From IMG/VR virus record IMGVR_UViG_3300029319_000122, positions 1 through 42,668 of that record: DNA of 42,668 nucleotides; one strand, 5' to 3'. The notes under the pieces were generated by a model that saw only the letters and a list, made by a program, of their open reading frames with translations, was not told the DNA's origin and did not search any database. The stretch is from a virus. Position 1 is the first letter of the stretch. The number at the start of each line of letters is the position of its first letter. Of the stretch, positions 2,156 to 27,107 are shown piece after piece. Both the position numbers and the translations under genes were made by a program.

Positions 2156-2557
2156 ATGGCAATCAAAAGGGTATCAAGAGCGTTTAAAGACATAAGTTTG
2201 TCGTTTTTACCCCACCCAGTCACAAAAGATCTACCCATTCTCAAAAATGAAAGGGCAATTAGTCGGTCTGTACGCAATATTGTAGAGACAATACCGACTG
2301 AAAAATTTTTTAATCCTGATTTTGGGTCTGATGTATACAAAAGTTTGTTTGATTTTGTTGATTTTGGTACGGCAAACATTATACAGAGTCAAATTGAGTC
2401 TTCGATTGCAAATTTTGAGTTAAGAGTTGATAATGTAAGGGTTGAAGTTGACCCACAACCTGATTTAAATCAGTTTGAAGTCACCGTAATTTATGATATT
2501 GTTGGTCAAGAGTTCCCAACTCAGGAATATTCATTTATATTAGAGGCAACAAGGTAA
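2156..2557 (+). CDS. 25: baseplate wedge subunit gp25
   Basis: This is the gp25/gpW-family baseplate wedge protein, which anchors the wedge to the hub and helps start sheath polymerisation. Its 133 residues match T4 gp25 (132). The region SFLPHPVTKDLPILKNERAI followed by SVRNIVETIPTEKFFNPDFG is the family core, and the closing strands read as in other gp25 proteins. It follows a late promoter and ends directly against the gp6 start with no gap (TAA then ATG). In T4 gene 25 lies away from gene 6, so this adjacency is a rearrangement relative to T4, though common in cyanophages. Confidence 0.93.
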   Translation: MAIKRVSRAFKDISLSFLPHPVTKDLPILKNERAISRSVRNIVETIPTEKFFNPDFGSDVYKSLFDFVDFGTANIIQSQIESSIANFELRVDNVRVEVDPQPDLNQFEVTVIYDIVGQEFPTQEYSFILEATR

Positions 2558-4471
2558 ATGCCTTTCTCAAATTTCACAAATCTTGATTTCGATCAGATAA
2601 AAACATCAATTAAGGATTATTTAAGAGCAAATTCCAACTTTACGGACTTTGATTTTGATGGTTCGAACTTTTCTGTCTTAATTGATACTCTTGCATACAA
2701 CACATATATCACTGCATTCAACTCAAACATGATTGTGAATGAATCTTTTCTTGATTCTGCCACTTTGAGAGAAAATGTAGTGTCATTAGCAGGTAATGTT
2801 GGATATACACCACGGTCTCGAACGGCAGCAAACGCACAAATATCATTTAATGCTAAAATTACAAGCAATGTAAGCACAGTTGACCTACAACCAGGTATAG
2901 TTTGCACTGGGGACATTGATAATGAGACATATACCTTTGCAATTACAGAAAAAATAAGTGCAAATGTCGTTGATGGAATCGCAAAGTTTGAAAATATTAA
3001 CGTTTATCAAGGAACTTATCTCGAAAAACAATTTACATATGATGGATCTCTCGATCAACGGTTTATTTTAGATAATTCTTTCATTGATACATCTAAAATT
3101 GCAGTTTATGTTAAAAATAGCACTGATAGTGGTGATGGTATACAATATTCCTTAGTAAATGATATTATTACTATCGATTCAAACTCAAAAATTTTCTTAA
3201 TAAAGGAAATTCAAGACGAAAAGTATGAATTAAAGTTTGGAGATGGATTTTTTGGTAAAAAATTGGGAGAGGAACCAGGTTTAGATGGAAATATTATTAC
3301 AGTTAAGTATATTACAACAGATGGAGAGGATGGTAACGGTGCTCAGAGATTTACTTTCTCTGGAAGAATAACAGATACGAATAAAAATGCAGTTAATTTG
3401 GAATCAACACCAATTATTCCTTCTGAATCAGTTGTAAAGTCTCAAAATGGTGGAAATATCGAATCTATAGATTCTATTAAGTATTTTTCACCTCTTTTAT
3501 ACTCATCACAGAACAGAGCTGTTACTGCAAGAGATTATGAAGCAATAATCAAGAAAATTTATCCAAATACTGAGTCGGTTTCGGTGATTGGTGGTGAAGA
3601 ACTTGATCCTCCAGAGTTTGGAACAGTTGCGATTAGTATAAAACCCAAAAATGGTGATTTAGTATCTGATTTTTCAAAAAATCAAATTTTATCTAAATTA
3701 AAACAGTACTCGATATCAGGTATTAATCAAAAAATCATAGATTTAAAGTTATTATATGTTGAACTTGACTCAAATGTTTATTATAATGATTCTCGTGTCT
3801 CAACCGCAAATTCATTAAAAACTGATGTTGTAAATTCATTAACAACCTATTCAAAATCAATAAATTTGAATAAATTTGGTGGAAGATTGAAATATAGTAA
3901 ATTACTTAAAGTTATAGATGACACTAATAATGCAATTACGTCAAATATCACTAAAATTAGAATGCGTAGAAATTTACAAATATCTGCGAATCAATTTGCA
4001 CAGTATGAACTTTGTTTTGGAAATAAATTCTATGTTAATCCAAACGGATATAACATAAAAACAACTGGATTTACTATTTCTGGGTATTCGGGAACATTAT
4101 ACTTAACTGATATTCCAAATTCAGATTTAAAAACGGGAATTATAAGAATAATTAAATTATTGGATGATAATACAATTCGAGTTATTGATTCATCGGCAGG
4201 ATCTATTGATTATGAAAAGGGGGAGGTAAATTTATCAACTATTAATTTTTTATCAACAACTAAACCAAATAATATAATTGAAGTGCAAGCATTTCCAAGA
4301 TCAAACGACATTGTTGGTTTGAAAGATTTATATATTTCATTGGATGTGTCGAATAGTACAATAAATATGGTTAGAGATGTTATTTCATCGGGAGATGAAG
4401 TTTCTGGTGTACAATTTACTAGAGATTTTTATTCATCAAGTTATCCAAACGGAAAAATAATTAGAACATGA
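2558..4471 (+). CDS. 6: baseplate wedge subunit gp6
   Basis: This is gp6, the J-like wedge protein that forms the inner dodecameric ring of the baseplate. Its 637 residues are close to T4 gp6 (660). The N-terminal segment FSVLIDTLAYNTYITAFNSN, followed by MIVNESFLDSATLRENVVSL, is the hallmark of the family. The central part with ARDYEAIIKKIYPNTESVSV corresponds to the baseplate J-like core. It starts immediately after the gp25 stop and overlaps the next ORF by 4 nt (ATGA), as expected for co-assembled wedge proteins made from one message. Confidence 0.93.
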   Translation: MPFSNFTNLDFDQIKTSIKDYLRANSNFTDFDFDGSNFSVLIDTLAYNTYITAFNSNMIVNESFLDSATLRENVVSLAGNVGYTPRSRTAANAQISFNAKITSNVSTVDLQPGIVCTGDIDNETYTFAITEKISANVVDGIAKFENINVYQGTYLEKQFTYDGSLDQRFILDNSFIDTSKIAVYVKNSTDSGDGIQYSLVNDIITIDSNSKIFLIKEIQDEKYELKFGDGFFGKKLGEEPGLDGNIITVKYITTDGEDGNGAQRFTFSGRITDTNKNAVNLESTPIIPSESVVKSQNGGNIESIDSIKYFSPLLYSSQNRAVTARDYEAIIKKIYPNTESVSVIGGEELDPPEFGTVAISIKPKNGDLVSDFSKNQILSKLKQYSISGINQKIIDLKLLYVELDSNVYYNDSRVSTANSLKTDVVNSLTTYSKSINLNKFGGRLKYSKLLKVIDDTNNAITSNITKIRMRRNLQISANQFAQYELCFGNKFYVNPNGYNIKTTGFTISGYSGTLYLTDIPNSDLKTGIIRIIKLLDDNTIRVIDSSAGSIDYEKGEVNLSTINFLSTTKPNNIIEVQAFPRSNDIVGLKDLYISLDVSNSTINMVRDVISSGDEVSGVQFTRDFYSSSYPNGKIIRT

Positions 4472-7400
4472 TAGAAACAGGTATTGTAAGTAAAGTTAAG
4501 ATACAAGATGTGTTATCAAATCAACTTCCGAATTTTATTCGGGATGAAAGTCCATCGACTATTGATTTTTTAAAACAATACTATGTTTCGCAGGAGTATC
4601 AAGGTGGACCAAGTGATATTTCTGACAATTTAGATCAATACTTAAATATTAATAATTTAACTCCCGAAGTCATAGTTGATAGTTCTACTACAGTTGGTAT
4701 CACTACTATTGGTGATAAAATAATTAATGTTACTAGCACGAAAGGATTTCCAAATCAATATGGTTTATTAAAGATTGATGATGAGATAATTACATATACA
4801 GGAATTACCAAAAACTCCTTTACTGGATGTAAACGTGGATTTAGTGGTATTACAAGTTATCATGCAGATACAAATAAAGAAGATTTAGTATTCAGTTCTT
4901 CATCTGCAGCAGAACATCAAAACTTATCCACAGTTAAAAATTTAAGTTCATTATTTTTAAAAGAATTCTATAAAAAGTTCAAATCAACCTTTTTACCTGG
5001 TTTAGAAGAAATTGATTTTCAATCAAACTTAGATGTTGGTACATTTATAGGTGAAGCAAGATCATTATATCAAACAAAAGGAACTGAAGAGTCATTTAGA
5101 ATACTTTTTAATGTTTTATATGGTATTACTCCAAAATTAATAAATTTGGAAGAGAGATTGATAAAACCATCATCTGCAAATTATGTTAGGAGAAGAGTTT
5201 GTGTTGCAGAGTTAATAGAAGGAAATCCAATAAAACTTAAAGGTCAAAGTTTACTTAAAGGATTAGCTGGACAAACTCTTTTCAGAAGTGATCTTGATTT
5301 AGATATCAACGCTGCTATCTCTGATATAGAACCTTTTGAGAGAAGTGGATCTGGATTGAGTGGAATTACTACTTACTATAAAATTGGTTTATTTGTTGGA
5401 TATGATGAAACCTCAGATATTGCAGGGGATTTTGTTATTGTACCAAATACAAAATCTTTAGAAACAGTATCAGCAGGTTCAAATATAATTTCCGTTGATT
5501 CTACCATTGGTTTTGGTGTAACAGGAACTTTAATATCAGGTTCTAATGTAATTAATTATACCGATAAAACTGTTAATCAATTTTTAGGTTGTACCGCAAC
5601 CAACGCAGGTTCATTTAATGATTCAATTGAACCAACTGCAAATATAAGATCAAACATTACATATTTTGGTTTTGAAGATGGTGATTTAGATAAAAAAGTT
5701 GTTTTAAGATTAACTGGTGTATTATCAGAATTTGAGCAAGATGGTAGTTTGGACGTTGAAGAGGGGGAAATGATATCAGTAAGATCTATTGGTGATAAAG
5801 TTGAGAATCCTCCTGTTGATAATTCATTTAAACAAATATTCTGTAACTCTTGGATCTATAATACAAGTTCCTCTTATTTTATTGACCTCGGAGATAATCC
5901 CTCTAGTGATCCATTTAATTTATCAAGTAAAACTGACCGATCTAGTCTAAAAGTAGGTGATTTTGTAGAGATAGTTGAAAGAGATAGTAATAAAATTATT
6001 GATACTGGCGATGCGTTTGTATCAGTTATTAATGATAATAATGTTACACTTGGTAGTGGGGATTTTAGTAAACTAGGTATAGGAACAGATTATAAACTAA
6101 GAAAAAAATTAAATAAGGCAAACAGTTCTGGTGCACCAATTGAATTTGGTAACGATGTAATTATTTCAGATGTTCAAAATGTTTATCTGGAATCCGAACA
6201 TGCATATGTGACATCAAACTCCTTACCATCTTTTGTTAATAAAGGTATCAATAATTCTTCAAAATTTTCAAAACAAATTAATATTGATGTAGATCAAATA
6301 TCTCTCAATTTAACTGATCCTAATGCTAATACTAATTCACTTTCAGGAGATACTGGTGATGAAACTGATTTTTCAACTATAACTTTTAACACTGATGTTC
6401 CATTCAATACTGGTGATAAAGTATTTTATACGTATTCGAATGGTAATTCTCTCGTTGGTTTAGATACAGGAATTTATTTTATTAATAAAGTCGGAGATAA
6501 AAGTATTAAATTGTATGGGTCTCCATCTGGTATTGCGGATGGAAAAAATATAACCTTTTCAAGAGGTGAAAATAGTGGTATTCTGAATTTTATTTTATTT
6601 TCTCAAAGATCTGGACAGATAGGAGCACAAAAATTAGTTAAAAAGTTTCCTTTAACTCAAAATTTAAGTAATGGTAGTGATGATCCAACTCCAATAGGAG
6701 AAGTTGGAATGTTAAAAAATGGTGTTGAAATATTAAACTATAAGTCTGAAGATAAAATGTTTTTCGGTCCTTTGACTGAAGTAAGTGTTTTAAACGAAGG
6801 AGAAAATTTTGATGTAATTAATCCTCCAGTCATATCTATTTCTCCTGGAATTGGAGAAAATGCCTTAGTTCAACCAGTTATCAGTGGAAAAATTGAAGAT
6901 GTATTTATTGGTAATCAAACTTTTGATATTGATAAAATTATTTCGATTGGTGTAACTGGGGGAAATGGATCTGGATGTATACTTGAACCAGTTATTGGAA
7001 CTCGATATAGAGAAGAATTTTTCAATGCAAAATCAACCAAATCTGGTGGAGGAATATCAACTGTTACAGTTGGAAATCCAACATCTAGAATTGTATTTAA
7101 TAAAAATCATAATTTTAAAACATCTGAACCAATAATATATGATTCTAATTTAAATCCAGAGATAATAATTGGATTTGGAACAAATACTCTAGTTAGTCAA
7201 TCAGTATATTATCCTAAAGTATTAAGTAGTAATACAATAGAATTATATGAGTCCCTTTCAGATTTATCATCAGGAATAGGAACAGTAAGATTAAGTGGAA
7301 ATTCTTCGGGAAATCATATATTTAAAGTTGGTCTTCGAAATACACTCTTAGATGTAAATGTAATTGATGGGGGTATGAATTACACTAATCGTAATTTATA

Positions 7401-10400
7401 TGTAAAACCATCAGGAATATCCACATCAAATAATAAAATAAATTTCGTAAATCATGGATTCTCTCATGGTGATTTAATTAACTATTCAACCAAAATTGGA
7501 CTTGGATCTGATATACCACAAACAATAAGTGGGTTAAGCACATCATTAAGTTATTATGTATTAAAAGATGATAATAATTCATTTAGATTAGCAAACGCTG
7601 GTATTGGTGGGACGATTATATCTAATTTTCAAAGAAATAAAAATGTATCTCTAGGATCCACTGGAACAGGATTCCAATCTTTTGCTTATCCAGAAATAAA
7701 AGTTATAGTGAACTTTAATTCTGTTGGTGTTGGAACATCACCAATAGTTCAAACAATCGATGCAATACCAAAAGTTAGAGGATCTATAAAACAAGCTTAT
7801 CTTTATGAACCAGGAAAAGGTTATGGATCAACAATTATTAACAATCATAAAAAACCAATTATAACTATAAAAAATGGTAAACAAGGATCGATAAAACCTG
7901 TTATTATAAATGGAAAAATTGATTCTGTAATAATTAACTTTGTTGGTCAGGAATATTTCTCCTCACCAGATCTTGAAGTTATAGATCCTACTGGTTTAGG
8001 AGCAGGTGCTAAATTAAGACCAATTATAGAAAATGGTAAGATTGTTGATGTAGAAATAGTAAATGAGGGAATTGGATATTCTAAAGACACATCAATAAAT
8101 GTTAAATCAGCAGGGCAAAATGTATTTTTTGATTCAAATGTGAGAGCATTAACATTAAATAAACATAGATCAAAACTGGATGCTAGTGATAATGTACGAA
8201 ACGAATATCAATTCTTAGAAGAATCTGATAATAAATTAAAATATTCTTTCATAGGATATCCTATTTCATTATTGGGTGATTCTGATTTAATAGGTTGGGC
8301 TTATGATGGAAATCCAATATATGGACCTCTTGGTAATAATGATCCTCAACAATTATCTCCTTTAGAAACAAGACTAAAATCTGGATATGTTAAAGATTTT
8401 AACAATATTGAAGATAGACCAGATGTAACTATATTTAAAGAAGGTTTCTTTGTTGAAGACTTTAAATATGATGGTAGTGGTGATTTAGATGAACATAATG
8501 GTAGATTTGAGGTAACTAAAGAATTTCCAAATGGAGTTTATGCTTATCATGCGACAATAGATGATCAAAATAAACCACAATTTCCATATTTTATAGGAAA
8601 TACTTTTAGATCAAAACCAATTTCCTTTAACTTTAATAATAATTTACAAACTAATTTTGATTTTATATCGAACAATCTAATTCGAAATACATTTCCATAT
8701 AAAGTCGCAGATGATTTTGCAGAAAATGATTTTATAGTTGAAACAAATGAAATTCAAAATCAAAAAATTGAAATTAACTCAATCTCTTCTGGTTCAGTTA
8801 CAGGATTAGATATCATATCTGGAGGATCAAACTATAAAGTTAATGAGTTTTTAAAATTTGATAGTGAAAATACTGGAGGAGATGGGTTTATATCCGCTGT
8901 ATCTAAAGTTTTAGGAAAAACAATACAATTAATTGATACTACAATTGAAAAAAATAATAATTCAGTTATTACTTGGTCGGAAAATAAAATTAATATTTTT
9001 ACTAATCCACATCATAATTTTAAGAATAATGATATAGTTAAAGTATCAGGAATATCATCTGATATTTCATTATTAAATAATTCATTTAAAGTTGGAGTAA
9101 CAACATTTACAACAACTACTATATCAACAATAACAGCATCACCATCTGCTGGATTTACCACTGAAATATTTGTATCAGACATACCATCTATAGTTTCAGT
9201 TGGTAGTAGCATTACCATCGGAACTGAAACTTTAAAAATATTAAACATCTATAAAAATTTAAATATATTAACAATTCAAAGAGGTTCATTTGGAACTGTG
9301 CATCCAAAAGGATCAATTGTAAATTACTTAACAAATAAATTTACAATTAGTAAATCAATTTCAGAGTTTAATTCAAAAGTTAATCAAAAAGTATTTTTTA
9401 ATCCAGCACAATCAATTGGAGTAGGTGTTAATGATGGGGATGTAGGTGAAGTTTCATTCTCTTTTGCAGGAAAAGATATTAAAAGAAATATCCCAGTAAA
9501 ACAAATTTTCATTGAGAATCATCCTTTCAAAACTAACCAAAAAATAAAATTTACGAAACCTGATTCTAGTCCTCAAATTTCAATATCAACTGAGACTGCA
9601 TCATCACTATTCAATTTACCCTCGGCACCTGAATACTTATATGTTGTAAATAAAACTCCAAATACAATTGGAATTAAAACTGGAATTGGAAATAATTTTA
9701 ATGAAGTTTATTTTAGAAATATTAATAGTGCCGATAGTGATTTATATCAATTTGAAACAGATTTTGATCAGATTACAGGTAATGTTGAAAGTATAAAAAC
9801 CATAGTAACAACAACAGAATCTCATGAGTTACAAAATGAGGATGAGATATCATTATCATTAAAGTCTAATTTATCCACTGGAATTGGTCAGTCCACATCG
9901 GTAAATGTTTCTAGAGACTCTGTAACAGGAAATATATTAATTAATCGTGTGGGATTTAATTCTGAGTCAATTAATATATCTACTAATACAATTACAATTC
10001 AAAATCATGGATTAAAAACTGGTGATAAAGTAAAATATGAATCAGATCTTTTACCAGAAGGATTAGAAAATAAAAATTATTTTGTTTATAAAATTGATGA
10101 TAATAATATTAAATTATGTGAAACTAATATTGACGTATTTAAAAATATTCCAAACATTACTAGTATTGGGTCAACAGGTGGAGTATCACAGTTTATATCA
10201 TTAATTAATCCTGAAATAAGATCAGTTAAGAATAATAACTTGGTTTTTGACCTTTCAAATTCTTCCCTGACTGGATATGAATTTAAAATTTATTATGATC
10301 AGGAATTTAAAAATAATTTTGTATCATCAGGAGAAAGTGCAGTATTTAATATTTCCACATCAGGATCAAATGGATCAGTAGGAGCAGCTTTAACAATTGG

Positions 10401-13400
10401 TTATGGAAACACCTCACCAGACATATTATATTACAATTTAGAAAAAACAGGAACAATTAGCACAACTGATACAGAAGTTAAAAATTATTCCAAAATATCT
10501 TTTATTGATAGTGTTTACAATAAATCCTTTAATATTTTTAATGTAAATAGTAACAATTTTCAAATATTTTTAAATGCTGTTCCAGAAAAATTATCTTATA
10601 ATTCTAGTGAGTGTGATGTATTAAAATATAGCACTAATTCAAAAACGGCAAAAGGATCAATTGAAAATGTTAAAATAGTTTCTGGAGGATCAAATTATAA
10701 GAAACTTCCTAATTTTGTAGGAATTGAGAAAAACTCTTTAGGAAAAGATGCGGTAGTTGTACCAACTTCAAATTTAATTGGAAATGTTAATAGTGTTAGA
10801 ATTATAAATGAAGGATTCGAATATTCTTCTGATCAAACTTTAAAACCAGAAAGTCTTATCTCTCCAAGTATTAATATTATTAATACTGAAACTCTTGGTA
10901 TTGTTAGTGTTACTAATGGTGGATCAAATTATATTCAAGCACCTGATATTATTATAGTTAATACTGATACTGGTAAAGAAATAAAAAGTGGATTTTTAGA
11001 ACCTGTGATGTTGGAAAATAGTATTTTATCTGTAAATATCACTGAACTCCCAATTGGTTTACCTTCAAAGACAGTAACTTTGAGAACAATTAATAATACT
11101 AATGGAATTGTAATAACAGATGTAAAATCAAACGGTTCAGGAATTTTTACGTGTAGAATAGCTACACCTACTCCTGCATTTCCTATAGATCCATTTTCTG
11201 TTGGAGACAAGGTGTTTATTGAAGGTATTGAAAAATATGAATCTTCTGGATCTGGATTTAATTCAAAAGATTATGGATATAAACTCTTAAATGTTGTATC
11301 ATTTGATCCTAACGTAAATAATCAAGCAGAGGTTGGAATAAGTGTAACTGAATTTGGTTCTACAAATACAGGAATTGCTGTAACGGAGGTAAAAACCTTT
11401 TCAACTATTATTAATGAATCAGATTATCCATCTTTTTTAGTTTCTCAAAACCAATCAATATTCAATCTTGGAGAAAAGTTAATAGTAAACAATATTCCAA
11501 GTAATTTTACTATTAGTCGTGTAGATGTTGGAAAGTTAAAAGTTTTTGGAAAAGATGAATTAAAAGTAGGTGATAAATTACTTGGACAAAACTCTGGAAG
11601 TCAATGTGAAATATCTAAAATAACTAAAAATGAAGGAAAATTTAAAACTAATTTTTCTATACTTAAAAATTTAAATTGGAATGATAATATTGGAAAATTA
11701 GATGAAGATTTTCAAGTTGTTGCTAATAATGATTACTATCAAAATATGTCATACTCCATTCAAAGTCCTATTGAGTGGCAAACTTTAAGAACACAAGTTA
11801 ATAATATTCTTCATACAAGTGGTATGAAGAATTTTGCTGATACCGAAGTATTATCGTCTGCTTCTGTGGGAATTGGATCAACATCTGATGTGAATTTAAT
11901 TGTAGATTTGATTAGTGAAAAAAGAGTGGATGAAGTTAAAGATATTGATCTTGTAAGAGATGTTGATGTCGTTGGTAATAATTCCAGATTTATACAATTT
12001 AAAAATATAAGATTATCTGATTTTATTAAGTGTAATACAAATGATGTTTTAGTAATAGATAATATAAGTGACAGATTTTCAAATTTTCAAGGAACTTTTA
12101 ACAAACACATTGATATAATTAATTTTAATAATATAACTGAATTATTTGATGATCTTATAGTAATTACAAAAAGCACAGCAACTTCTGGAATTTTTGATAA
12201 AATTCAATTATCAAATTTACTTTTATTGGGTAATGGATCTAAAAATATTTTAGTAGAAAAATCAGATTTAATTAATTCAGGAGATGGATTTGTCAATTCT
12301 GAAAGTAATAATTTTGTTGATTTTAATTTAATTAATAATAATTTAAGATTTACACCCAATACAGATTTGGATTTGACAAATGATAGAGATTATGATTTAA
12401 AAATATTTTCATCTAAATTTAATACAAACTTAGTTGGAGTTGGAACATCTTCAATTGGACCGATAGATTTAAGTTCTCGTATTCAGACATGTGCAACTGG
12501 GATTACGACTAATATAATTTCTGTTCCTACAAACAATTTTGAGTCTTTATATGCAACAATACACGTAATTGATACGATTACAAATGAAATGAATTTGGTT
12601 GAAAGTTTTATATCTCATTCTGGCACAAATACTTTCCTCTCAGAAGCATATTTCAATACTGAGGGTGGTGCTTTATCTTTAAATCAGTTAGGAATTGTTA
12701 CATCAAGCATATCTAATAATAATTTAGTATTAGGATTTGAAAATAATGGTTCGAATACTTTAAAACTTAAAACTAGAATTATAGGTATAGGGACAATTGG
12801 TGTTTCTGATGCAACTTATAGATTTACGTCAACTGGACAAATATCTGGTAGTGAAAGGTCATCACTTTATTCTGGAGTATCTACGAGTAACATAGGAATA
12901 TCAACATTAGTCAACTTAGATTCAAGTTTATTCAACGCAGTTAAATCAATCGTTGAAGTTAGTATTGGATCTTCAAAAGCTATTCATGAGGTACTATCTA
13001 TTCATGATGGTATGAACGCATATGCACAACAATCTGGATCTTTATCAGTTACGAAAGATAGTGCAACGGAGTATGATCCATCTTCAGGATTAGGAACTTT
13101 TGGAGCAACACTTTCAGGATCTAATTATAAACTTATATTTCATCCAGATAATTTATCTGGAATTTCAACTGTTGTATCATTAAATCATTGTTTTTATATT
13201 AAAACTGATACGGAAAACACTCCCGAAGATTTAAATTATGGTGTCATCACTGAAAATAATTCAACTCAATCATACAATTCAATATCTGGAAATCGAATCA
13301 ATAGAACACAATTTACTCTTAAAAATAATTCAACACCAATTTTTGGAAAAGTGTTTAATCCATCAGATACAACAGGTAAATTTATATCATCAACTGGTCA

Positions 13401-16400
13401 ATTTAATATAGATAATCATTTCTTCAGAGAAAATGAAGAATTGGTTTACAAACCAGCATCCACATTTATCGGTATTGGTTCCATACCTATACAATTTAAA
13501 AATGGTTCCATAATTGATGAATTACCAACTACAGTTTTTGCAAAGAGTGTTACAAGCAATTCATTCTTTATATCAACCACAAGAGCAGGAACTGCTGTTA
13601 CATTTGTAAGTTTAGGTGAAGGAAATGCTCATGAACTAAACATGGCAAAGGCAAATGAAAAAACTTTAATAACAGTAGATGATGTAGCTCAATATCCGTT
13701 AATAAGAGCTGATGTAACACATACTTTAGATAGCAACATAGGGTCTCAAGTTGGGTTAACAACAACCATCATCCATTTGAGTGGAATATCTACAATTTCA
13801 TCTGAGGATGTTTTAAAAATAAATGATGAGTTTATGAAAGTTGTAAACGTTGGATTTGCTACAACAGGATTTGGTCCCGTTGGTTCATCAGGAACCTTCA
13901 ATTCAGTTGAAGTTCAAAGGTCTTTTGTTGGCACATCGGCAACCACACATAATGACGGAACAACAGTTAACTTATTCAGAGGATCTTATAATATCTCTGG
14001 TAGAGATATATTCTTCACTCAAGCTCCCAGAGGAAATCCTGCAAACCTTAAAACTGAAAATAATTTAAATTTTGCAACTTCTAATTTTAATGGAAGAGTA
14101 TATTTAAGAAACGATTACAGTTCAAATGTCATCTATGATGATATATCAAACCAGTTCACAGGAAATAAATCTGATTTTATTTTAAAACTTAATGGGTCAG
14201 ATAAAGTAGGATTAGGAACAACTGGAGGAAGTGGAGTATTATTTATTAATGGAATATTCCAATCACCATCAACTGAATTTAATCCAAACCAAAACTACAT
14301 AATCACAGACAATGCCACTGGTGGTGCGGGAGGAGCAAATATCATTAATGTTGGATCAGGATATACTGCATCTGATGGTTCTGCCAACGGGACACGATTA
14401 AATGTTAATACAACTGGTGGAAGTGGAACAAGTCTCACAGTTGATATAACAGTTACTGATGGTGTGGTAAGTTTAGTTGGAATTAGTACCGTTGGCACAG
14501 GTTACAAAGTTTCAGATGAGATTACAATTACTCGTCCTGGTGGAGGAGACGCAAAATTTATAATCCCTTCCATTACGAATGCGGTTGGAGTATCTACCCT
14601 AACATTTACAGGAATTACATCAAGTAATGGATCCACCTTTACCTCAAATAATATTAATACAAATGAACTACCTAGAGGTGGTGTACCAATTTCGATTGGA
14701 AACACAGTTAATGGATTAGGATATGCTCCTCTTGTGGGTGCAAATGTTAAACCTCTCTTTAACGCTGGTGGTCAAATTACAAGTATAGTTGGAGTTGCTT
14801 ACAGTGGATCTGATTTGGGTATTCAAACTGCTGCATATAATAATGTAACTGGAATCATAACGTTTACAACTGTTAATGAACATAAATTTAGAGATTCAAA
14901 TGATTTTGTCTTGATTGATAATATGGTTTTTGATCCTCCATTACCAGGTGGTTTCATAAGAAGTAATGAATATGAAGTTGTTTCAATAGCTGCTACAAAT
15001 GTTTTCGGTGTAAGCATCGGGTCAAGCACAGTATCTAATGTGTATCAAGGTTCTGGTAACTTATATCCATTCTTCCCCAATTTAACTTTTGGATCAGGAT
15101 ATAACGGTCTCTCACCAATTGGAGTTGCAGTGACTGACTTGGGATACGAACATCGTTTTGTATCTGCAAATACAGATGCGATTTTTGTAATGCCTGGAGT
15201 GTCACTCACACCTACAAACGCAGTATACAATCCTGTTACAGGTGAATTACAATTGACTGTTCCAAATCATGGGTTAACTGGTGGTGTTGTTTTATTACAG
15301 GATCGTAGTATATTTTTCACATGTTCAAGGGATGATTTTAGAACTGTTCATCCCTACCCAAGACCAACAGATCCAGCATCAGGACAAAATTTAGCAGTCA
15401 CAAAAATTACTGATGATATATTCAGTGTGAATGTTGGAGTCAATGTTGGTTCTGGTGCACAGGTAACTGCCACTGCAGGTGTTGGAGGAACAGCAATATT
15501 CTCAGTCGTAGGAATTGGGACAAGTTATAAAGATCCGCAGATATTTGTTTCTCAACCATCATATTCCAATCTATCAGTTAGAGGAGTATCACGACTTGGA
15601 ATTGGTTTAACAACCGATACAGGAACTGGTTTAAGAGTAAATGCAATCGTTAAACCAGTCACAGGAATCGGATCAACTTTATTTGAGGTATCTGAATATG
15701 AAATAATAGATAAAGGGTTTGGATACAAGAAAGGTGATGTTGTAGAGGCTGTTGGATTAGTTACTTCAAAAGACATGCCTAGTCTTGTTGAGAGATCAAC
15801 ATTAACTATTAATGAAGTATTTAATGATTCATTTGCACTCTGGCAATTTGGTGACTTTGATTATATTGACTCAATTAAAACGCAACAAGATGGTGTTGAA
15901 ACTAATTTCCCACTACAGTTAAATAATCAATTGGTTAGTGTTGAAACTAGTGATAATTTACTTGAGAATGTTGATATTGAAAACATATTTTTAGTTATTG
16001 TAAATGGTGTGATTCAAAAACCAAAAATATCATATAGTATTGTTGGAGGAACTATTATTAGTTTTGTAGAACCACCAATACCAGAAGATGATATTACAAT
16101 ATTATTCTACAGAGGAACTGCTGAACAAGATTCAAAGGTTAATCTTGCACAAAAATTAATCATAGAGGAGGGAGACAAAGTTCAAATAACACAAGGTTCA
16201 GGAGTTGTAGAGCAGAATGAAAGAACAGTGTTTAGTTTAAACACCTCTAAAAAATTAGAGACTAACGCATATGTAGGTGATGGAATTAGTGAAAGTGTTG
16301 ATAGACCTCTCAATCTTATCAAACAAAAAGAAGATAAGATTATTAATAAATCATTAGTTTCAAAGAAAAGATCAAGCATTGAACCAAGAATTACACCAGT

Positions 16401-17421
16401 GGCAAAAATTATAAGTGATATTGTTCCAACTGGTTCGGGAGGAGCAAGAGTTTTATTTGTTGATAATGCACAATTATTCGAATATGAATTAACCACTCCT
16501 GATGTAAGTAATCAGGCAATGAATTTATCAATTAATTTAAAAGAACAATTTGATTCTGTGAATGCATCAGCAACTGCAAATGTATCAATTGCAGGAACTG
16601 TTTCATCAATATCAATTGGAATTGCTGGAACAGGATACGATTCTGCACCAACTGTTAAATTATCAGCACCACCATCAATTAGTGTTGGTGTAGGAACAAC
16701 GGCAACAGCAGAGGCAACCATCGGTACTGGTGGAACTGTCACTGCAATAAATATCACAAATCCTGGTCTAGGATATACTATCGCACCAAAAGTGCTGATA
16801 TCAAGTCCCATAGACTACCCCACTACTATTGAAAATCTTACAACAGAGGCTGGTGGTTCCTTAAATATTAGACACAGTTATGGTGTAATAACAGGAATTG
16901 GAACAACTATTTCAAATAATCTTAGACATTCCAATAAATTAGGAATTAAATTTGAACTCTATAAAGATCCTAGTCTAAATGATTTTGCTCCTGTATTTTA
17001 TAGAGATGATGGAACTGATGATAGACCAGTTAACATCTTTGATACTCGTGTTGGAACAGGAGTCACATCAATTTCTCAAAGTGGATTTGATAGTGATGTT
17101 ATTGCCTTTGGAGAATCTTTCTTAGATAACGTGTATGAAATAGCAGGTTTTTCTTACTCTGGTTCTGTTGGAGTACTTACATGTTTAATTAAATCCGATA
17201 CTGATACCACAGGTCTTACATCAACAGGAACTCAATTTCAACCAGTCGGTAAATTCTCTCTTGGTCGAATTGGAAATATTAAAAGATCTTCAAATCTAGC
17301 TATTGGAGTAACTGGATTTACTGTCGGATCAACCACTGGTTTGAGCACATTCCCAACAATAAAAAGGACTGGAGGAGCAGATACTTTTGAACAAAGTGGT
17401 GCAATTCAACCAGAAGATTGA
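4468..17421 (+). CDS. giant baseplate/tail protein in the gp7 position (4317 aa)
   Basis: A single uninterrupted frame of 4317 codons fills nearly a third of the window. Residues about 1-260 hold a helical segment around GTEESFRILFNVLYG (about 205-220) that recalls P2 gpI/T4 gp7-type wedge proteins. With its place between gp6 and gp8, this suggests it supplies the gp7 wedge function (inference). The rest is a mosaic of beta-rich modules: G-S-G-Y repeats, about ten FCCH-like repeats, RG-x-x-GT...H modules, a YHYH-like domain at about 1270-1385, a segment YYQNMSYSIQSPIEWQ near 2425, and two 'NG-hh-Q-P' fibre-type motifs. No signal peptide or membrane helix is seen. It overlaps gp6 by 4 nt. Base composition rises sharply after about 13.6 kb. 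It may form peripheral baseplate or fibre-like structures contacting the host, which is unproven. Confidence 0.85.
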   Translation: MIETGIVSKVKIQDVLSNQLPNFIRDESPSTIDFLKQYYVSQEYQGGPSDISDNLDQYLNINNLTPEVIVDSSTTVGITTIGDKIINVTSTKGFPNQYGLLKIDDEIITYTGITKNSFTGCKRGFSGITSYHADTNKEDLVFSSSSAAEHQNLSTVKNLSSLFLKEFYKKFKSTFLPGLEEIDFQSNLDVGTFIGEARSLYQTKGTEESFRILFNVLYGITPKLINLEERLIKPSSANYVRRRVCVAELIEGNPIKLKGQSLLKGLAGQTLFRSDLDLDINAAISDIEPFERSGSGLSGITTYYKIGLFVGYDETSDIAGDFVIVPNTKSLETVSAGSNIISVDSTIGFGVTGTLISGSNVINYTDKTVNQFLGCTATNAGSFNDSIEPTANIRSNITYFGFEDGDLDKKVVLRLTGVLSEFEQDGSLDVEEGEMISVRSIGDKVENPPVDNSFKQIFCNSWIYNTSSSYFIDLGDNPSSDPFNLSSKTDRSSLKVGDFVEIVERDSNKIIDTGDAFVSVINDNNVTLGSGDFSKLGIGTDYKLRKKLNKANSSGAPIEFGNDVIISDVQNVYLESEHAYVTSNSLPSFVNKGINNSSKFSKQINIDVDQISLNLTDPNANTNSLSGDTGDETDFSTITFNTDVPFNTGDKVFYTYSNGNSLVGLDTGIYFINKVGDKSIKLYGSPSGIADGKNITFSRGENSGILNFILFSQRSGQIGAQKLVKKFPLTQNLSNGSDDPTPIGEVGMLKNGVEILNYKSEDKMFFGPLTEVSVLNEGENFDVINPPVISISPGIGENALVQPVISGKIEDVFIGNQTFDIDKIISIGVTGGNGSGCILEPVIGTRYREEFFNAKSTKSGGGISTVTVGNPTSRIVFNKNHNFKTSEPIIYDSNLNPEIIIGFGTNTLVSQSVYYPKVLSSNTIELYESLSDLSSGIGTVRLSGNSSGNHIFKVGLRNTLLDVNVIDGGMNYTNRNLYVKPSGISTSNNKINFVNHGFSHGDLINYSTKIGLGSDIPQTISGLSTSLSYYVLKDDNNSFRLANAGIGGTIISNFQRNKNVSLGSTGTGFQSFAYPEIKVIVNFNSVGVGTSPIVQTIDAIPKVRGSIKQAYLYEPGKGYGSTIINNHKKPIITIKNGKQGSIKPVIINGKIDSVIINFVGQEYFSSPDLEVIDPTGLGAGAKLRPIIENGKIVDVEIVNEGIGYSKDTSINVKSAGQNVFFDSNVRALTLNKHRSKLDASDNVRNEYQFLEESDNKLKYSFIGYPISLLGDSDLIGWAYDGNPIYGPLGNNDPQQLSPLETRLKSGYVKDFNNIEDRPDVTIFKEGFFVEDFKYDGSGDLDEHNGRFEVTKEFPNGVYAYHATIDDQNKPQFPYFIGNTFRSKPISFNFNNNLQTNFDFISNNLIRNTFPYKVADDFAENDFIVETNEIQNQKIEINSISSGSVTGLDIISGGSNYKVNEFLKFDSENTGGDGFISAVSKVLGKTIQLIDTTIEKNNNSVITWSENKINIFTNPHHNFKNNDIVKVSGISSDISLLNNSFKVGVTTFTTTTISTITASPSAGFTTEIFVSDIPSIVSVGSSITIGTETLKILNIYKNLNILTIQRGSFGTVHPKGSIVNYLTNKFTISKSISEFNSKVNQKVFFNPAQSIGVGVNDGDVGEVSFSFAGKDIKRNIPVKQIFIENHPFKTNQKIKFTKPDSSPQISISTETASSLFNLPSAPEYLYVVNKTPNTIGIKTGIGNNFNEVYFRNINSADSDLYQFETDFDQITGNVESIKTIVTTTESHELQNEDEISLSLKSNLSTGIGQSTSVNVSRDSVTGNILINRVGFNSESINISTNTITIQNHGLKTGDKVKYESDLLPEGLENKNYFVYKIDDNNIKLCETNIDVFKNIPNITSIGSTGGVSQFISLINPEIRSVKNNNLVFDLSNSSLTGYEFKIYYDQEFKNNFVSSGESAVFNISTSGSNGSVGAALTIGYGNTSPDILYYNLEKTGTISTTDTEVKNYSKISFIDSVYNKSFNIFNVNSNNFQIFLNAVPEKLSYNSSECDVLKYSTNSKTAKGSIENVKIVSGGSNYKKLPNFVGIEKNSLGKDAVVVPTSNLIGNVNSVRIINEGFEYSSDQTLKPESLISPSINIINTETLGIVSVTNGGSNYIQAPDIIIVNTDTGKEIKSGFLEPVMLENSILSVNITELPIGLPSKTVTLRTINNTNGIVITDVKSNGSGIFTCRIATPTPAFPIDPFSVGDKVFIEGIEKYESSGSGFNSKDYGYKLLNVVSFDPNVNNQAEVGISVTEFGSTNTGIAVTEVKTFSTIINESDYPSFLVSQNQSIFNLGEKLIVNNIPSNFTISRVDVGKLKVFGKDELKVGDKLLGQNSGSQCEISKITKNEGKFKTNFSILKNLNWNDNIGKLDEDFQVVANNDYYQNMSYSIQSPIEWQTLRTQVNNILHTSGMKNFADTEVLSSASVGIGSTSDVNLIVDLISEKRVDEVKDIDLVRDVDVVGNNSRFIQFKNIRLSDFIKCNTNDVLVIDNISDRFSNFQGTFNKHIDIINFNNITELFDDLIVITKSTATSGIFDKIQLSNLLLLGNGSKNILVEKSDLINSGDGFVNSESNNFVDFNLINNNLRFTPNTDLDLTNDRDYDLKIFSSKFNTNLVGVGTSSIGPIDLSSRIQTCATGITTNIISVPTNNFESLYATIHVIDTITNEMNLVESFISHSGTNTFLSEAYFNTEGGALSLNQLGIVTSSISNNNLVLGFENNGSNTLKLKTRIIGIGTIGVSDATYRFTSTGQISGSERSSLYSGVSTSNIGISTLVNLDSSLFNAVKSIVEVSIGSSKAIHEVLSIHDGMNAYAQQSGSLSVTKDSATEYDPSSGLGTFGATLSGSNYKLIFHPDNLSGISTVVSLNHCFYIKTDTENTPEDLNYGVITENNSTQSYNSISGNRINRTQFTLKNNSTPIFGKVFNPSDTTGKFISSTGQFNIDNHFFRENEELVYKPASTFIGIGSIPIQFKNGSIIDELPTTVFAKSVTSNSFFISTTRAGTAVTFVSLGEGNAHELNMAKANEKTLITVDDVAQYPLIRADVTHTLDSNIGSQVGLTTTIIHLSGISTISSEDVLKINDEFMKVVNVGFATTGFGPVGSSGTFNSVEVQRSFVGTSATTHNDGTTVNLFRGSYNISGRDIFFTQAPRGNPANLKTENNLNFATSNFNGRVYLRNDYSSNVIYDDISNQFTGNKSDFILKLNGSDKVGLGTTGGSGVLFINGIFQSPSTEFNPNQNYIITDNATGGAGGANIINVGSGYTASDGSANGTRLNVNTTGGSGTSLTVDITVTDGVVSLVGISTVGTGYKVSDEITITRPGGGDAKFIIPSITNAVGVSTLTFTGITSSNGSTFTSNNINTNELPRGGVPISIGNTVNGLGYAPLVGANVKPLFNAGGQITSIVGVAYSGSDLGIQTAAYNNVTGIITFTTVNEHKFRDSNDFVLIDNMVFDPPLPGGFIRSNEYEVVSIAATNVFGVSIGSSTVSNVYQGSGNLYPFFPNLTFGSGYNGLSPIGVAVTDLGYEHRFVSANTDAIFVMPGVSLTPTNAVYNPVTGELQLTVPNHGLTGGVVLLQDRSIFFTCSRDDFRTVHPYPRPTDPASGQNLAVTKITDDIFSVNVGVNVGSGAQVTATAGVGGTAIFSVVGIGTSYKDPQIFVSQPSYSNLSVRGVSRLGIGLTTDTGTGLRVNAIVKPVTGIGSTLFEVSEYEIIDKGFGYKKGDVVEAVGLVTSKDMPSLVERSTLTINEVFNDSFALWQFGDFDYIDSIKTQQDGVETNFPLQLNNQLVSVETSDNLLENVDIENIFLVIVNGVIQKPKISYSIVGGTIISFVEPPIPEDDITILFYRGTAEQDSKVNLAQKLIIEEGDKVQITQGSGVVEQNERTVFSLNTSKKLETNAYVGDGISESVDRPLNLIKQKEDKIINKSLVSKKRSSIEPRITPVAKIISDIVPTGSGGARVLFVDNAQLFEYELTTPDVSNQAMNLSINLKEQFDSVNASATANVSIAGTVSSISIGIAGTGYDSAPTVKLSAPPSISVGVGTTATAEATIGTGGTVTAINITNPGLGYTIAPKVLISSPIDYPTTIENLTTEAGGSLNIRHSYGVITGIGTTISNNLRHSNKLGIKFELYKDPSLNDFAPVFYRDDGTDDRPVNIFDTRVGTGVTSISQSGFDSDVIAFGESFLDNVYEIAGFSYSGSVGVLTCLIKSDTDTTGLTSTGTQFQPVGKFSLGRIGNIKRSSNLAIGVTGFTVGSTTGLSTFPTIKRTGGADTFEQSGAIQPED
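4771..4875 (+). repeat. RG-x-x-GT...H module, copy 1
   Basis: The residues run IDDEIITYTGI, then CKRGFSGITSYHAD. This 30-40 residue pattern (an I-D-x-E strand, a variable loop, R-G-x-x-G-T, then H) is common in phage tail proteins. Related copies in this window are near 9211-9320, 13810-13971 and 25356-25482, the last in a different gene. A degenerate copy lies around 5520-5600. Confidence 0.6.
6393..15440 (+). repeat. FCCH-like repeats in the giant protein
   Basis: About ten segments share the pattern N/H-x-h-x-x-G-D-x-h-x-Y ... Y-x-V-x-x-h-x-x-N-x-h-x-L, as in the FCCH-like repeat found in many phage tail proteins. Copies begin near 6393, 7105, 7450, 9010, 9516, 9820, 10003, 13414, 14878 and 15265. 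The clearest is NHGLKTGDKVKYESD at 10003 with YFVYKIDDNNIKLCE. They alternate with other modules rather than forming a clean tandem array. The degenerate ones (9010, 9820, 14878) are weaker calls. Confidence 0.55.
6781..16810 (+). repeat. G-S-G-Y beta-repeat family in the giant protein
   Basis: Units of about 35-50 residues follow the pattern h-x-h-x-x-x-G-x-G-Y-x-x-x-P-x-h-x-h, often followed by a Gly-rich 'GxGA' turn and an 'I-x-x-G-x-I/V-x-x-V-x-I' pair of strands. Clusters lie near 6781-6910, 7786-8106, 8788-8925, 10651-11040, 14335-14590 and 16600-16810. A clear unit is IGIAGTGYDSAPTVKLSAP, followed by INITNPGLGYTIAPKVLIS. The same family appears in gp8, the DUF4815-type protein and gp14. 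Confidence 0.7.
8270..8610 (+). other. YHYH-like domain inside the giant protein
   Basis: Residues about 1270-1385 contain WAYDGNPIYGPLG, then LDEHNGRFEVTKEFPNGVYA, YHATID and FPYFIG. This is the order of motifs in YHYH domains. Here the name-giving motif is YAYH rather than YHYH, so one histidine is replaced by alanine. The domain is found in secreted and phage structural proteins; its biochemical role is unclear. Confidence 0.7.
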
Positions 17422-17464: not shown

Positions 17465-19054
17465 ATGCCCGCCGTAGTAACAGATCAGTTTAGAATAACG
17501 AACGCAAGTAATTTTGTAGACTCTGTATTAGATTCTAATAATTCTTATTATGTATTTTTAGGATTACCAAATCCAGCGGTAACTGGTTTTGGAAGAACAT
17601 CAAATTGGAATTCTTCAACACCGAATCCAGTAGATAATTTACAATATCTTACTCACTATAGAGATACATCATTATTTGGAAAGAAAATAAATTCTTCAAA
17701 TATTCGTAGAGTAGTAAAAAAACATACATGGGCTGCAAATACCAAATACGATATGTATCGTCACGATTATGAAGCATTGAGTAATCCTGCACCTAATTCA
17801 CAAACTGGAAGTTTATATAAAACAAATTACTATGTGATTACATCTGAATTTAAGGTTTATATTTGTTTAGATAATGGTAGTAGTGCAACTAATCTAAAAG
17901 GAAATGAATCATTAGATGAACCCACCTTTACAGATTTAGAACCAGCAGCTGCTGGAACACAAAATGACGGATATATTTGGAAATATTTGTTTACGGTTTC
18001 TCCGAGTGATGTAATAAAATTTGATTCGACTGAATACATAGTTCTCCCAAATGATTGGTCAACTACGACTGATGCTCAAATACAATCAATAAGAGAATCT
18101 GGAGATTCGGATATTAACAGAAATCAATTGAAAAAAGTTTACATTGCCGATGGTGGATCTGGTTATAATGGTGGTAGTACTGCAACTAGATCTGAAATTT
18201 GTAATATTCTTGGTGATGGAAGTGGTGCAAAAGCACTAGTAACAGTTACTAGTGGTGTTATAACTGACGTAGTTGTTACCTCTGGTGGATCTGGTTATAC
18301 TTTTGGAATAGTAGATTTAACTCCTATTAATAATATTGGTGTAGAAGAATCAAATAAAGCAAAACTGATACCAATAATTCCACCATCAAAGGGGCATGGG
18401 TTTGATATCTATACTGAACTTGGTGCGGATAAAGTTTTAGTTTATTCACGTTTTGATGATTCAACAAAGGATTTTCCAACAGATACCCATTTTGGTCAGG
18501 TAGGAATAATTAAAAATCCATCACAATTCAGCACGGCAGCAGGTATTTTAACAACACCTCAATTTTCATCATTATCATCAATTAAATTACAGTCATCCAT
18601 TGACACTTCTGATTATAATAATTTAATTGGAGTTAGTATAGCACAAACTGTAACTGGTGGTACTGCAAGAGGTATTGTTGCGTCTTATGATCAGGATACT
18701 TTTGTCTTAAAATACATTCAAGATCGAAGTTTAAATTTAAATCAAACTACCAATGATACAACTGATTATCAGGGTGTGGATTTAAGAGGTGGAGTATTAT
18801 CTTTTGAATCAAGTGATGCATCTATAAATGGAAGTGGTAGTGTTTCATTTGATGCCTCAATAGATAAGAGTTTTAGTGGTATAACTACAACTATCGGCAA
18901 CAAACAAATTAATTTGGGAGTTGAGTTCACAGGAGGTCTAGCTAATCCTGAAATAAATAAAAAGACTGGTGATGTTATCTACATTGATAATCGAAAAAAA
19001 GTTGAAAGAAACATCAGACAAAAAGAAGACGTTAAAATTATCCTAGAATTCTAA
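17465..19054 (+). CDS. 8: baseplate wedge subunit gp8, enlarged
   Basis: This is gp8, which forms dimers at the periphery of the baseplate wedge. The N-terminal part with YYVFLGLPNPAVTGFGRTSN matches the gp8 core, as do DGYIWKYLFTVSPSDVIKFD and EYIVLPNDW. The C-terminal IYIDNRKKVERNIRQKEDVK plus IILEF matches the end of T4 gp8. At 529 residues it is far longer than T4 gp8 (334). Much of the excess is an insert of G-S-G-Y repeats at residues about 222-290 and further beta segments near 390-460. It has its own late promoter and ends 4 nt before the next gene. Confidence 0.9.
   Translation: MPAVVTDQFRITNASNFVDSVLDSNNSYYVFLGLPNPAVTGFGRTSNWNSSTPNPVDNLQYLTHYRDTSLFGKKINSSNIRRVVKKHTWAANTKYDMYRHDYEALSNPAPNSQTGSLYKTNYYVITSEFKVYICLDNGSSATNLKGNESLDEPTFTDLEPAAAGTQNDGYIWKYLFTVSPSDVIKFDSTEYIVLPNDWSTTTDAQIQSIRESGDSDINRNQLKKVYIADGGSGYNGGSTATRSEICNILGDGSGAKALVTVTSGVITDVVVTSGGSGYTFGIVDLTPINNIGVEESNKAKLIPIIPPSKGHGFDIYTELGADKVLVYSRFDDSTKDFPTDTHFGQVGIIKNPSQFSTAAGILTTPQFSSLSSIKLQSSIDTSDYNNLIGVSIAQTVTGGTARGIVASYDQDTFVLKYIQDRSLNLNQTTNDTTDYQGVDLRGGVLSFESSDASINGSGSVSFDASIDKSFSGITTTIGNKQINLGVEFTGGLANPEINKKTGDVIYIDNRKKVERNIRQKEDVKIILEF
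18130..18330 (+). repeat. G-S-G-Y repeat pair inserted in gp8
   Basis: Two units, VYIADGGSGYNGGSTATRSE and ITDVVVTSGGSGYTFGIVDL, flank a GDGSGAKALVTV linker. The pair interrupts the gp8 fold between the EYIVLPNDW region and the C-terminal strands, and it has no counterpart in T4 gp8. Its pattern is the same as that of the giant protein and gp14. Confidence 0.75.
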
Positions 19055-19058
19055 GAAA

Positions 19059-22000
19059 ATGTCACAAAAAATTAATTTAAATGCAAGTCCATATTATGAT
19101 GATTTTGATAATCAGAAAAATTTTCATAGGGTTCTTTATAAACCTGGTTTTCCAGTACAAGCAAGGGAATTAACACAACAACAATCAATATTACAAGATC
19201 AAATCGAAAAGTTTGGTGATCATGTTTTTAAAGAGGGTTCAGTCGTAATACCTGGAGGAATTGGATATGACACACAATATAATGCCGTAAAATTAAATAA
19301 TACTAATTTTAATATTGATATATCGATTTATATTAATAATTTTTTAGGTAAAAGAATAGTTGGAAGTGAGTCTGGGATTGAAGCTGTTGTAAAATTTATT
19401 GCTCTTCCAGATGGTGGTGATGTAGAAAATATAACCTTGTATGTAACATATTTAAGTGCCGACAATAATTCACAATTCAATTCATTTACAGATGGAGAAA
19501 CATTAAGTGCGACTGAAAATGTCATATACGGTAATACCACAATAAGTGCTAATACTCCATTCGCTTCACTTATTTCTGAAGATGCAACTGCAGTCGGATC
19601 TGCTGCATTTATATCTCAGGGAGTATATTATGTCAGGGGATTCTTTGTTAATGTTTCCAATCAAACAATAATATTAGATCATTATTCAAACACCCCTTCA
19701 TACCGTATTGGGTTGCAAGTCAGAGAAATTATTGTAAATGCCAAAGATGATGGAAGTTTATATGATAATGCAAAAGGATTTACTAACTTTGCAGCACCAG
19801 GTGCAGATAGATTAAACATTGAGTTAATATTAACTAAAAAGTTATTAACAGATAAAAATGATACTGATTTTATTGAGTTGCTAAGACTTGATGAGGGGTT
19901 ATTAAAAATAATACAATCAAAGAGTGAGTATAATAAAATTCGTGATTGGATTGCGGAAAGAACCTATGATGAGTCTGGTGATTATAGTGTCGAACCGTTT
20001 AGAATGAATTTATTTAATTCACTAAATGATAATTTTGGAAATGGTGGTTTATTTTTTGAAGGTGAGAGAACAGATCAAGAAAATGAACCATCAGATGATT
20101 TAATGTGCTTAAAAATATCTGCAGGTGAGGCATATGTGAGAGGATATGATGTTAATAAAACAGGAACAACAATTATAGATGTTGATAAACCAAGAGATGT
20201 TGGTATCAGAAGTGATATTGGTGTTGGTTTTGAGATGGGAAATATTTTAAAATTAAATAATGTCACAAAAGGTGTTATAAATCAAGGAAGTATCGTAAAA
20301 TTATTTGATAATTTTAATGGTGCAGGAACTAATATTGGTAGTGCAAGGGTTTATTCGTTTAATTTAGAGGACGCTGCATATGAGGGTAATGCTACAAGAT
20401 GGGAACTAAGATTATTTGATGCTCAAACAAATACAGATTTAGTTTTAAATCAAACAGTAAGTAGCACTGAACTACCAGCAGGTTCTTTCATAAAAGGAAA
20501 AAATAGTGGGGCAAGTGGATTTGCCGTTGGTGCTGGTGGTAATTCAACATTAGTTAAATTAAATGAAACTTCAGGATCATTTAATATTGGTGAACAGATA
20601 CAAATAAATGGTGTTGATTTCCCAAGAACAATTGGAATAGCAACTGTATATACAGCACAAGATATCAAATCTGTGGATGACGGTGACAAATTAAAGGCAG
20701 ATGTCGTATTGGAAAGATTCAGATTGCCAAATAACATTGTCAATGTAGTTATTAATGGTGCCACTGTTACCGCACCAGGTAACGTATTTACAGGCATGAA
20801 GGCTGGATCTGTTGTTAGATATGCAAAACCAGGATTTACAACAGAAACTTATAATAAAGTTGCAGAAGTTGGTGTTGGTGGAACTAATTTAACACTTGAA
20901 AGAATATCCACAGGAGTTGCTGGTGTATATGAGGGTGAACTCGTTGCTGGAGATTCAATATCAGTTCCAATGTTTATTGGCGCACCATTTATTACTGGAT
21001 CTGGAGCTTTATATGCACCATTACCAAATGGTAATGTATCAGATATTGATTTATCAGATTCTACATTAAAGGTGACAGAAACAAATCTTAGAAAGCAAGC
21101 AGGTGGTCAAGAGTTAACAATTGACATTGGTAATACAAGTTTAAGCACTGATGCAATATTTGAAAATTTTGATCAAGAGAGATATTCATTATTTCAAGAC
21201 GATGGTAAACCCTTACCAATTACAAATGATATATTCGAATTAAAAGATGGAAGTAAACAAATTGTTATTTCTAATTTGCCAAATAATTTTTTTAGAACAA
21301 GTCTAACTCTTACAAAAACAAAAATAAGATCAAAAATAAAAAATTATAATCGAAGTCAAAAATTAAATGTAACTAGATCAAAACTTGCACAATCAGGTAG
21401 TGTTGCGGGAGGAGATAGCAAATCAATTGCTGATGGACTTACATTTGATGCCAGATATGGTTTAAGAGTGCAGGATGAAGAAATATCTTTAAATTATCCA
21501 GATGTAGTTAAGTTTCTGGCAGTTTATGAGTCTACAAACACATCTACACCAGTATTAGATAAATTAACCTTTACAAGCACTGTTGCTGTACAGACTAATG
21601 CAATTATTGGTGAAAATATAATAAGTAAGGACACTAGTGTCATTGCAAGAGTTGTATCCTCACCTTCTAATAACATATTAGAAATTGTATACTTAACATC
21701 AGGAAAATTCCAAGCAGGTGAATCAGTCGAATTTGATGAATCAAATATAAAAACAACTATCGAATCAATTACAATAGGAAATTATAAAGATATAACAAAT
21801 TCATTTACTTTAGATAAAGGTCAAAAAGATCAGTATTATGATTATTCAAGGTTAGTTCGTAATCGAAATGTTCCAGAACCAAGTGCTCAATTATTAGTTG
21901 TATTTGATTATTATTCTGTTGCTTCTGATGATGGTGATGTATTTACAGTATTAAGTTACGATGAAGAAAGATTTTCAAATGATATACCATATATTGGTGC

Positions 22001-26762: not shown

Positions 26763-27107
26763 ATGTCATCTGTATATGTTTCAAATTTAATAATAAACAC
26801 AGGAGCAACTTTTAGTCAATCTTTCGACTTATTAGATTCTGAAAGTTCTGGTCCTTTGAATTTGAATGGGTTTACTGTTGCATCACAATTTAGAAAACAT
26901 GCAGGTAGTAGTACAAAAACTGATTTTACAACTGCAATAACAGATGCTACAAATGGTCAGATATCCATTAGTTTAACATCCACACAAACTGCTGCCATAT
27001 CAAAACCAGGACGTTATGTTTATGATGTTGTAATCGATAATGGATCTTCAGTAAAAACTAGAGTAATTGAAGGTTCGGTTCTGGTTAGGGAGGGAGTAAC
27101 AAAATAA
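26763..27107 (+). CDS. small beta-rich virion-type protein (114 aa)
   Basis: The product has the alternating pattern of an immunoglobulin-like or BppU-N-like beta sandwich: NTGATFSQSFDLLDSESSGP, then GFTVASQFRKHAGS, then PGRYVYDVVIDNGS and a closing strand. Proteins of this type in tailed phages attach to baseplates or fibres. It lies just before a fibre-like protein and the neck gene gp13, where T4 has fibre and whisker genes. I infer a structural role but cannot name a T4 equivalent. The start follows a candidate late promoter and the stop overlaps the next start by one base (TAATG). Confidence 0.65.
   Translation: MSSVYVSNLIINTGATFSQSFDLLDSESSGPLNLNGFTVASQFRKHAGSSTKTDFTTAITDATNGQISISLTSTQTAAISKPGRYVYDVVIDNGSSVKTRVIEGSVLVREGVTK

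Follow-up and report, generated by a model that had tools for sequence, protein, structure and literature searches.

The baseplate wedge protein gp7 of phage T4 (PHROG 964) has 1,032 residues, the size given in the original prediction for the locus studied here, and is encoded after gp6 and before gp8. Much smaller homologues are encoded in the same slot by other phages (PF23786, PHROG 26741 and PHROG 17744), among them those of SKML-39 (284 residues), IME-SM1 (503 residues) and BUCT-ZZ01 (607 residues). In Vibrio phage XM1, the gp7 orthologue gp17 has 242 residues, and spikes attach via an internal loop (residues 80–106) and the C-terminus (PMC10457771). For pelagi- and cyanomyophages it was stated that T4 gp7 is absent and is replaced by VrlC (PMC7029224), and gp10–gp12 are absent from cyanomyoviruses (PMC2984593). 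T4-like cyanophages routinely carry an ORF of 3,000–6,200 residues between gp6 and gp8 (PHROG 2885), which is often already annotated as gp7. The S-SM1 orthologue T4-GC969 (SSM1_102) was found in the virion by mass spectrometry (PMC3037559). In S-CREM2, 91 unique peptides with 27% coverage were assigned to a protein of 1,937 residues (by coordinates) encoded between gp6-like and gp8-like ORFs (PMC10665884). Virion presence holds for the S-SM1 orthologue and probably for that of S-CREM2, which was assigned by gene position.

Results

The window analyzed here is a linear virus sequence of 42,668 bases, probably a fragment. Its wedge genes, and all features of the gp7-slot ORF described below, lie on the plus strand in the order gp25 (2156..2557; PHROG 261), gp6 (2558..4471; Pfam Gp6-like_1st, E = 8e-18), gp7-slot ORF (4468..17421), gp8 (17465..19054; Pfam Phage-Gp8, E = 1.5e-13) and VrlC (19059..26528; DUF4815, 2,489 residues). 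The start ATG of the gp7-slot ORF overlaps the gp6 stop, and its 4,317 codons run in one frame with zero internal stops. The predicted 466-kDa product matched the PHROG 2885 baseplate wedge subunit with E = 0. At 27–34% GC, chance cannot account for an open frame as long as this. The single 12.95-kb frame claimed between gp6 and gp8 was thereby confirmed, also by single-frame relatives in 12 IMG/VR contigs and by purifying selection.

Several further observations were made around the wedge genes. Late-promoter-like sites (TATAAATA) were found at 2131, 17440, 39601 and 40758, all on the plus strand, the former two preceding gp25 and gp8, respectively, by 25 bases. No such site was found between gp6 and gp7, and the total count across the 42,668 bases was not above chance. 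The ORF at 1391–2113 is conserved (PHROG 3704), and its relatives are named ferredoxin or PurM; no Pfam domain was found in it, and the label looks doubtful. Near VrlC, positions 26763–27107 encode an LtfC-like beta-sandwich protein whose relatives are annotated for L-shaped tail fibre assembly, making it a possible candidate for a fibre adaptor.

To place the ORF among known proteins, it was compared with the giant cyanophage family. The PHROG 2885 profile scored 3,189 bits over residues 2–3658. By tblastn, 466 phage records matched, nearly all of them cyanophages, and in 92 of these the match spanned 80% or more of residues 1–2,977. Proteins in the same slot have 3,048 residues in S-PM2, 3,895 in S-SRM01, 4,225 in ACG-2014f, 4,314 in S-CAM7, 4,454 in P-HM2, 4,749 in S-T4, 4,878 in Sf-CH5, 5,195 in P-SSM2 and 6,180 in S-SM1. 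Family members (P-SSM2 PSSM2_111, S-SKS1, S-SRM01, S-T4 and S-CAM7) share the gene slot, colinearity over the whole chain, 33–46% identity over the first 2,970 residues, the same two core blocks described below and the same module set; they differ only in length and in one indel-rich block. By these matches the ORF is a member of the known giant gp7 family PHROG 2885, and its size is normal for cyanophages. The expectation that it would be among the largest phage virion proteins holds across phages generally, but within T4-like cyanophages it is of ordinary size.

Twelve independent IMG/VR metagenome contigs carry complete single-frame relatives of 4,194–4,347 residues. Among these, dN/dS was 0.07–0.41 in every block tested, which indicates purifying selection along the chain (0.07–0.09 in core block 1, 0.08–0.16 around core block 2, 0.18–0.32 in the inserts and 0.33–0.41 after residue 3280). 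An alignment of seven viruses was colinear over the whole chain with 25–56% identity per 100-residue block, except for residues ∼3290–3670 and the far C-terminus. In the former, the indel-rich variable block (14335..15477), identity fell as low as 14%, gaps reached 61% and three of the other phages had insertions of 41–185 residues. Both core blocks are the extremes of conservation and dN/dS along the ORF.

The first core block is N-terminal. A profile built from a panel of 16 gp7-slot proteins of cyano-, pelagi-, Sinorhizobium, Stenotrophomonas, Salmonella and Acinetobacter phages matched T4 gp7 725–759 with a score of 65 (E = 7.7e-9; best of 100 shuffles, 23). This match defines block 1b, the KGT helical hairpin (residues 146–254; 4903..5229). 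A profile of the cyanophage N-terminus alone matched T4 gp7 724–827 with E = 2.3e-6. Block 1a comprises the first helices (residues 11–60, QLPNFIRDE..FLKQYY; 4498..4647), which correspond to the T4 gp7 helical domain 643–689. Its assignment is based on helices in a low-confidence AF2 model and on hhalign. When the barrel between the helices (residues 64–149) was excised, the match became colinear with T4 gp7 644–861 at a score of 61, compared with a maximum of 28 for reversed and column-shuffled controls. A search of PDB sequences with an N-terminal profile of close relatives alone gave no match. The AF2 model of residues 1–600 (34 sequences) had a mean pLDDT of 57 with unreliable core helices, and no gp7 was among the fold matches listed for it, barrels filling the list. 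For the gpI likeness raised in the original prediction, a profile comparison with a single P2 gpI sequence as target gave no signal over background, scoring 10.9 against 15.8 for shuffled controls.

The second core block (motif YYQ..SYxI..HPxG) lies at residues 2409–2472 (YYQNMSYSI..HTSGMKNF; 11692..11883) and was located with PHROG profiles, the panel and a conservation peak of 0.81. The fragment matched the compact gp7 families PHROG 26741 (E = 2.4e-8) and PHROG 17744 (E = 1.9e-5), both of which also match block 1. Against T4 gp7 865–893 the panel scored 37.9 (best of 100 shuffles, 24.3). With close relatives only, similarity of block 2 to T4 was weak (E = 0.015) and was improved by adding S-PM2, S-SM1 and the compact gp7s; the link to T4 therefore runs through the compact homologues. 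When all PDB sequences were searched with a profile of four compact gp7s, T4 gp7 ranked first (E = 0.0024). The match covered T4 644–759 and, weakly, 864–890 in the right order, the second segment not being significant alone. In held-out sequences, the block 2 HMM found HTVC008M gp055 (E = 3e-19) and P-HM2 gp7 (E = 2e-16).

The original prediction had confined the likeness to gp7 to the first few hundred residues. This was borne out for the KGT hairpin, but homology extends to residues 2409–2472 as well, and the part of T4 gp7 that is matched is its C-terminal third (∼644–890), not its N-terminus. By sequence, the core of the gp7-slot protein consists of blocks 1 and 2, homologous to T4 ∼644–760 and 861–890, and we consider it likely, jointly with the architecture proposed below, that the ORF encodes a real gp7. 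T4 gp7 resembles the ORF in its gene slot and in having both blocks in the same order. It differs in that ∼640 residues precede the core and a 96-residue domain V (766–861, Pfam) sits exactly between the two blocks, whereas here the core begins at the N-terminus and ∼2,150 residues part the blocks. Pfam matches to T4 gp7 domains V and VI (PF21427 and PF21456) were not detected in the ORF at E ≤ 1; it is therefore not filed as a Straboviridae-type gp7 (PHROG 964). The compact gp7s have the same blocks, order and slot as well, but their blocks are 46–305 residues apart and they have few or no beta modules.

The gap between the blocks forms a series, from 46–47 residues in the compact homologues of Ackermannviridae through 123 in T4 to 244–850 in intermediate phages. 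Measured from the KGT motif to block 2, the distance is 46 residues in SH-Ab 15599, 47 in SKML-39, ∼123 in T4, 244 in BUCT-ZZ01, 304 in IME-SM1, ∼560 in HTVC008M, 847 in phiM7, ∼1,630 in S-PM2, 2,219 in this ORF, ∼2,275 in P-SSM2, ∼2,400 in P-HM2 and ∼2,760 in S-SM1. Judged from this series, one loop of the gp7 core has grown about 50-fold. The chain after block 2 grows likewise, from ∼40 residues in SKML-39 to ∼2,700 in S-SM1. Growth on a smaller scale is seen at a third site, which separates the first helices from the KGT hairpin and holds one beta barrel here and ∼500 residues in S-SM1. A literature search, with most subscription papers beyond reach, found no earlier description of a split gp7 core. 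Giant gp7s are usual in cyanobacterial phages; the split core and the growth series are the added insight here.

Two arms follow from this arrangement. Arm 1 is a core insertion of ∼2,150 residues (255–2408; 5230..11691), delimited by the spacing series and consisting, by HMM, mostly of beta modules. Arm 2 is a C-terminal extension of 1,845 residues (2473–4317; 11884..17418), which is absent from the compact gp7s and follows the length series. Iterated HMMs found nine GxGY, six NHGF, two barrel and two HDG modules in the ORF, and Pfam added a YHYH domain, in agreement with the claim that the remainder is a mosaic of beta modules. Barrel C1 (residues 62–143; 4651..4896; HMM E = 7e-36) lies between the core helices and aligned in VIA-align with 8jov_1 (Z 10.0, 84 residues aligned, rmsd 2.8) and the phage baseplate 8rk3_b (Z 9.3). 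Barrel C2 (residues 323–400; 5434..5667; HMM E = 2e-26) matched 9in6_M (Z 9.4) and 9n71_A (Z 8.7). The barrels thus resemble phage tail-hub barrels (Z 8.7–10, 69–84 residues aligned, rmsd 2.1–2.8). In arm 2, module D was found by HMM in two copies, at residues 2681–2759 (12508..12744; E = 1e-28) and, as HDG, at residues 2812–2894 (12901..13149), the latter containing the third strong conservation peak (residues 2821–2880; 12928–13107).

GxGY modules are also present in the same core loop of the IME-SM1 and phiM7 gp7s. Within this virus, beside the nine in gp7, three were found in gp14 (28459–29889), two in VrlC and, by HMM, one in gp8 (17465–19054). The module is common to the neck protein gp14 and to baseplate proteins, as if moving between distant parts of the virion. 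The AF2 model of residues 980–1395 was confident (pLDDT 81) and mostly beta. It was in this part that the YHYH domain was detected (residues 1272–1365; 8281..8562; PF14240, E = 3.6e-19). The YHYH histidines were proposed to bind zinc, and YHYH in general was predicted to be a metal-dependent hydrolase (PMC7824862). In this family they are not conserved: the positions of H1343 and H1361 hold histidine in just 46 of 84 relatives and otherwise Asn, Phe or Tyr. A fold search with the module B/YHYH model gave a best Z of 6.0, which is within background and uninterpretable.

The core blocks were then sought in VrlC. Like the gp7-slot protein, VrlC belongs to the baseplate region, is encoded in the same operon, is very large and has GxGY and barrel modules; it differs in being without gp7 core blocks, neither of which was found in VrlC of this virus by profile and HMM searches. 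Conversely, Pfam detected no DUF4815 domain in the gp7-slot ORF; this domain belongs to the neighbouring ORF. In pelagi- and cyanomyophages, the ORF between gp6 and gp8 has both core blocks. The published claim that VrlC replaces gp7 is contradicted by this distribution. In the pelagimyophage HTVC008M, gp055 (21435–24485) lies between gp6 and gp8 and has block 1 (E = 1e-33, as a panel member) and block 2 (held out, as given above). Its RefSeq name is head closure Hc2. On these matches gp055 is the gp7 of the reference pelagimyophage, misnamed Hc2, a label that probably stems from the GxGY modules common to gp14. HTVC008M gp059, gp062, gp063 and gp064 (32145–42905), which are named baseplate wedge initiator, matched neither core block significantly. 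It seems that fibre-like proteins have come to bear the gp7 name.

Discussion

The explanation that we regard as probable is that the ORF encodes a cyanophage-type gp7 with a two-block core, a looped arm and a C-terminal arm at the baseplate periphery. In this wedge protein of a marine T4-like cyanophage-type virus, the two blocks, ∼2,200 residues apart, would come together in space, and the joined core would pack on the gp6 dimer in the manner of T4 and XM1. Each of the six wedges would then bear one looped arm leaving and rejoining the core and one free C-terminal arm. From their position and from the absence of gp10–gp12, the arms may form the periphery of the baseplate, substituting for T4 gp10–gp12; sequence matches of T4 gp8–gp12 to the giant ORF or to VrlC were not found. 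By position, the arms might also carry host-contact or fibre-attachment sites. There is about an even chance that the core loop is a growth site, extending from 46 to more than 2,700 residues, and that the looped and C-terminal arms jointly replace gp10–gp12. As in XM1 gp17, the two expansions are one internal loop and the C-terminus. XM1 gp17 is tiny, and its orthology to gp7 is as published.

Were the ORF an unrelated tail protein occupying the gp7 position and VrlC the replacement of gp7, this would fit the report of T4 gp7 absent and VrlC present (PMC7029224) and the lack of a gp7 Pfam match in the full ORF. However, both core blocks are in the gp7-slot ORF and none in VrlC, and HTVC008M gp055 likewise has both, so this explanation is strongly disfavoured and very improbable. 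The giant chain might instead be a polyprotein cleaved as the virion assembles, for instance with a cut between block 2 and arm 2, yielding a modest gp7 and separate fibre or spike proteins. The modules are fibre-like, and selection is relaxed toward the C-terminus, from a dN/dS of 0.07–0.09 in block 1 to values reaching 0.41 in the last 600 residues. Yet the single frames are colinear with no indel hotspot at a block border, the variable block lying at 3290–3670 instead, and the 91 unique S-CREM2 peptides fall under one ORF (PMC10665884), although this is compatible with cleavage too. We regard cleavage as improbable.

Slightly less improbable, but still unlikely, are arms that are mainly enzymatic or receptor-binding, for example with YHYH as a metal-dependent hydrolase at adsorption (PMC7824862). 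The significant YHYH match speaks for such a role, as does the resemblance of module B to a domain of phage endosialidases (Z 5.5–6). But the proposed zinc-binding His is kept in only about half of the relatives, and a Z of ∼6 is background, ubiquitin E1 scoring the same.

The cyanophage-type gp7 reading locates the gp7 core for structural biologists in a phage group that is among the most abundant in the ocean. It corrects the view of VrlC as the gp7 substitute in pelagi- and cyanomyophages and names HTVC008M gp055 as gp7. The two gp7 growth sites are of the same kind as the two points at which a minimal phage attaches its spikes. If the proposed architecture is true, these phages would have wedge proteins whose core is put together from two segments separated by thousands of residues.
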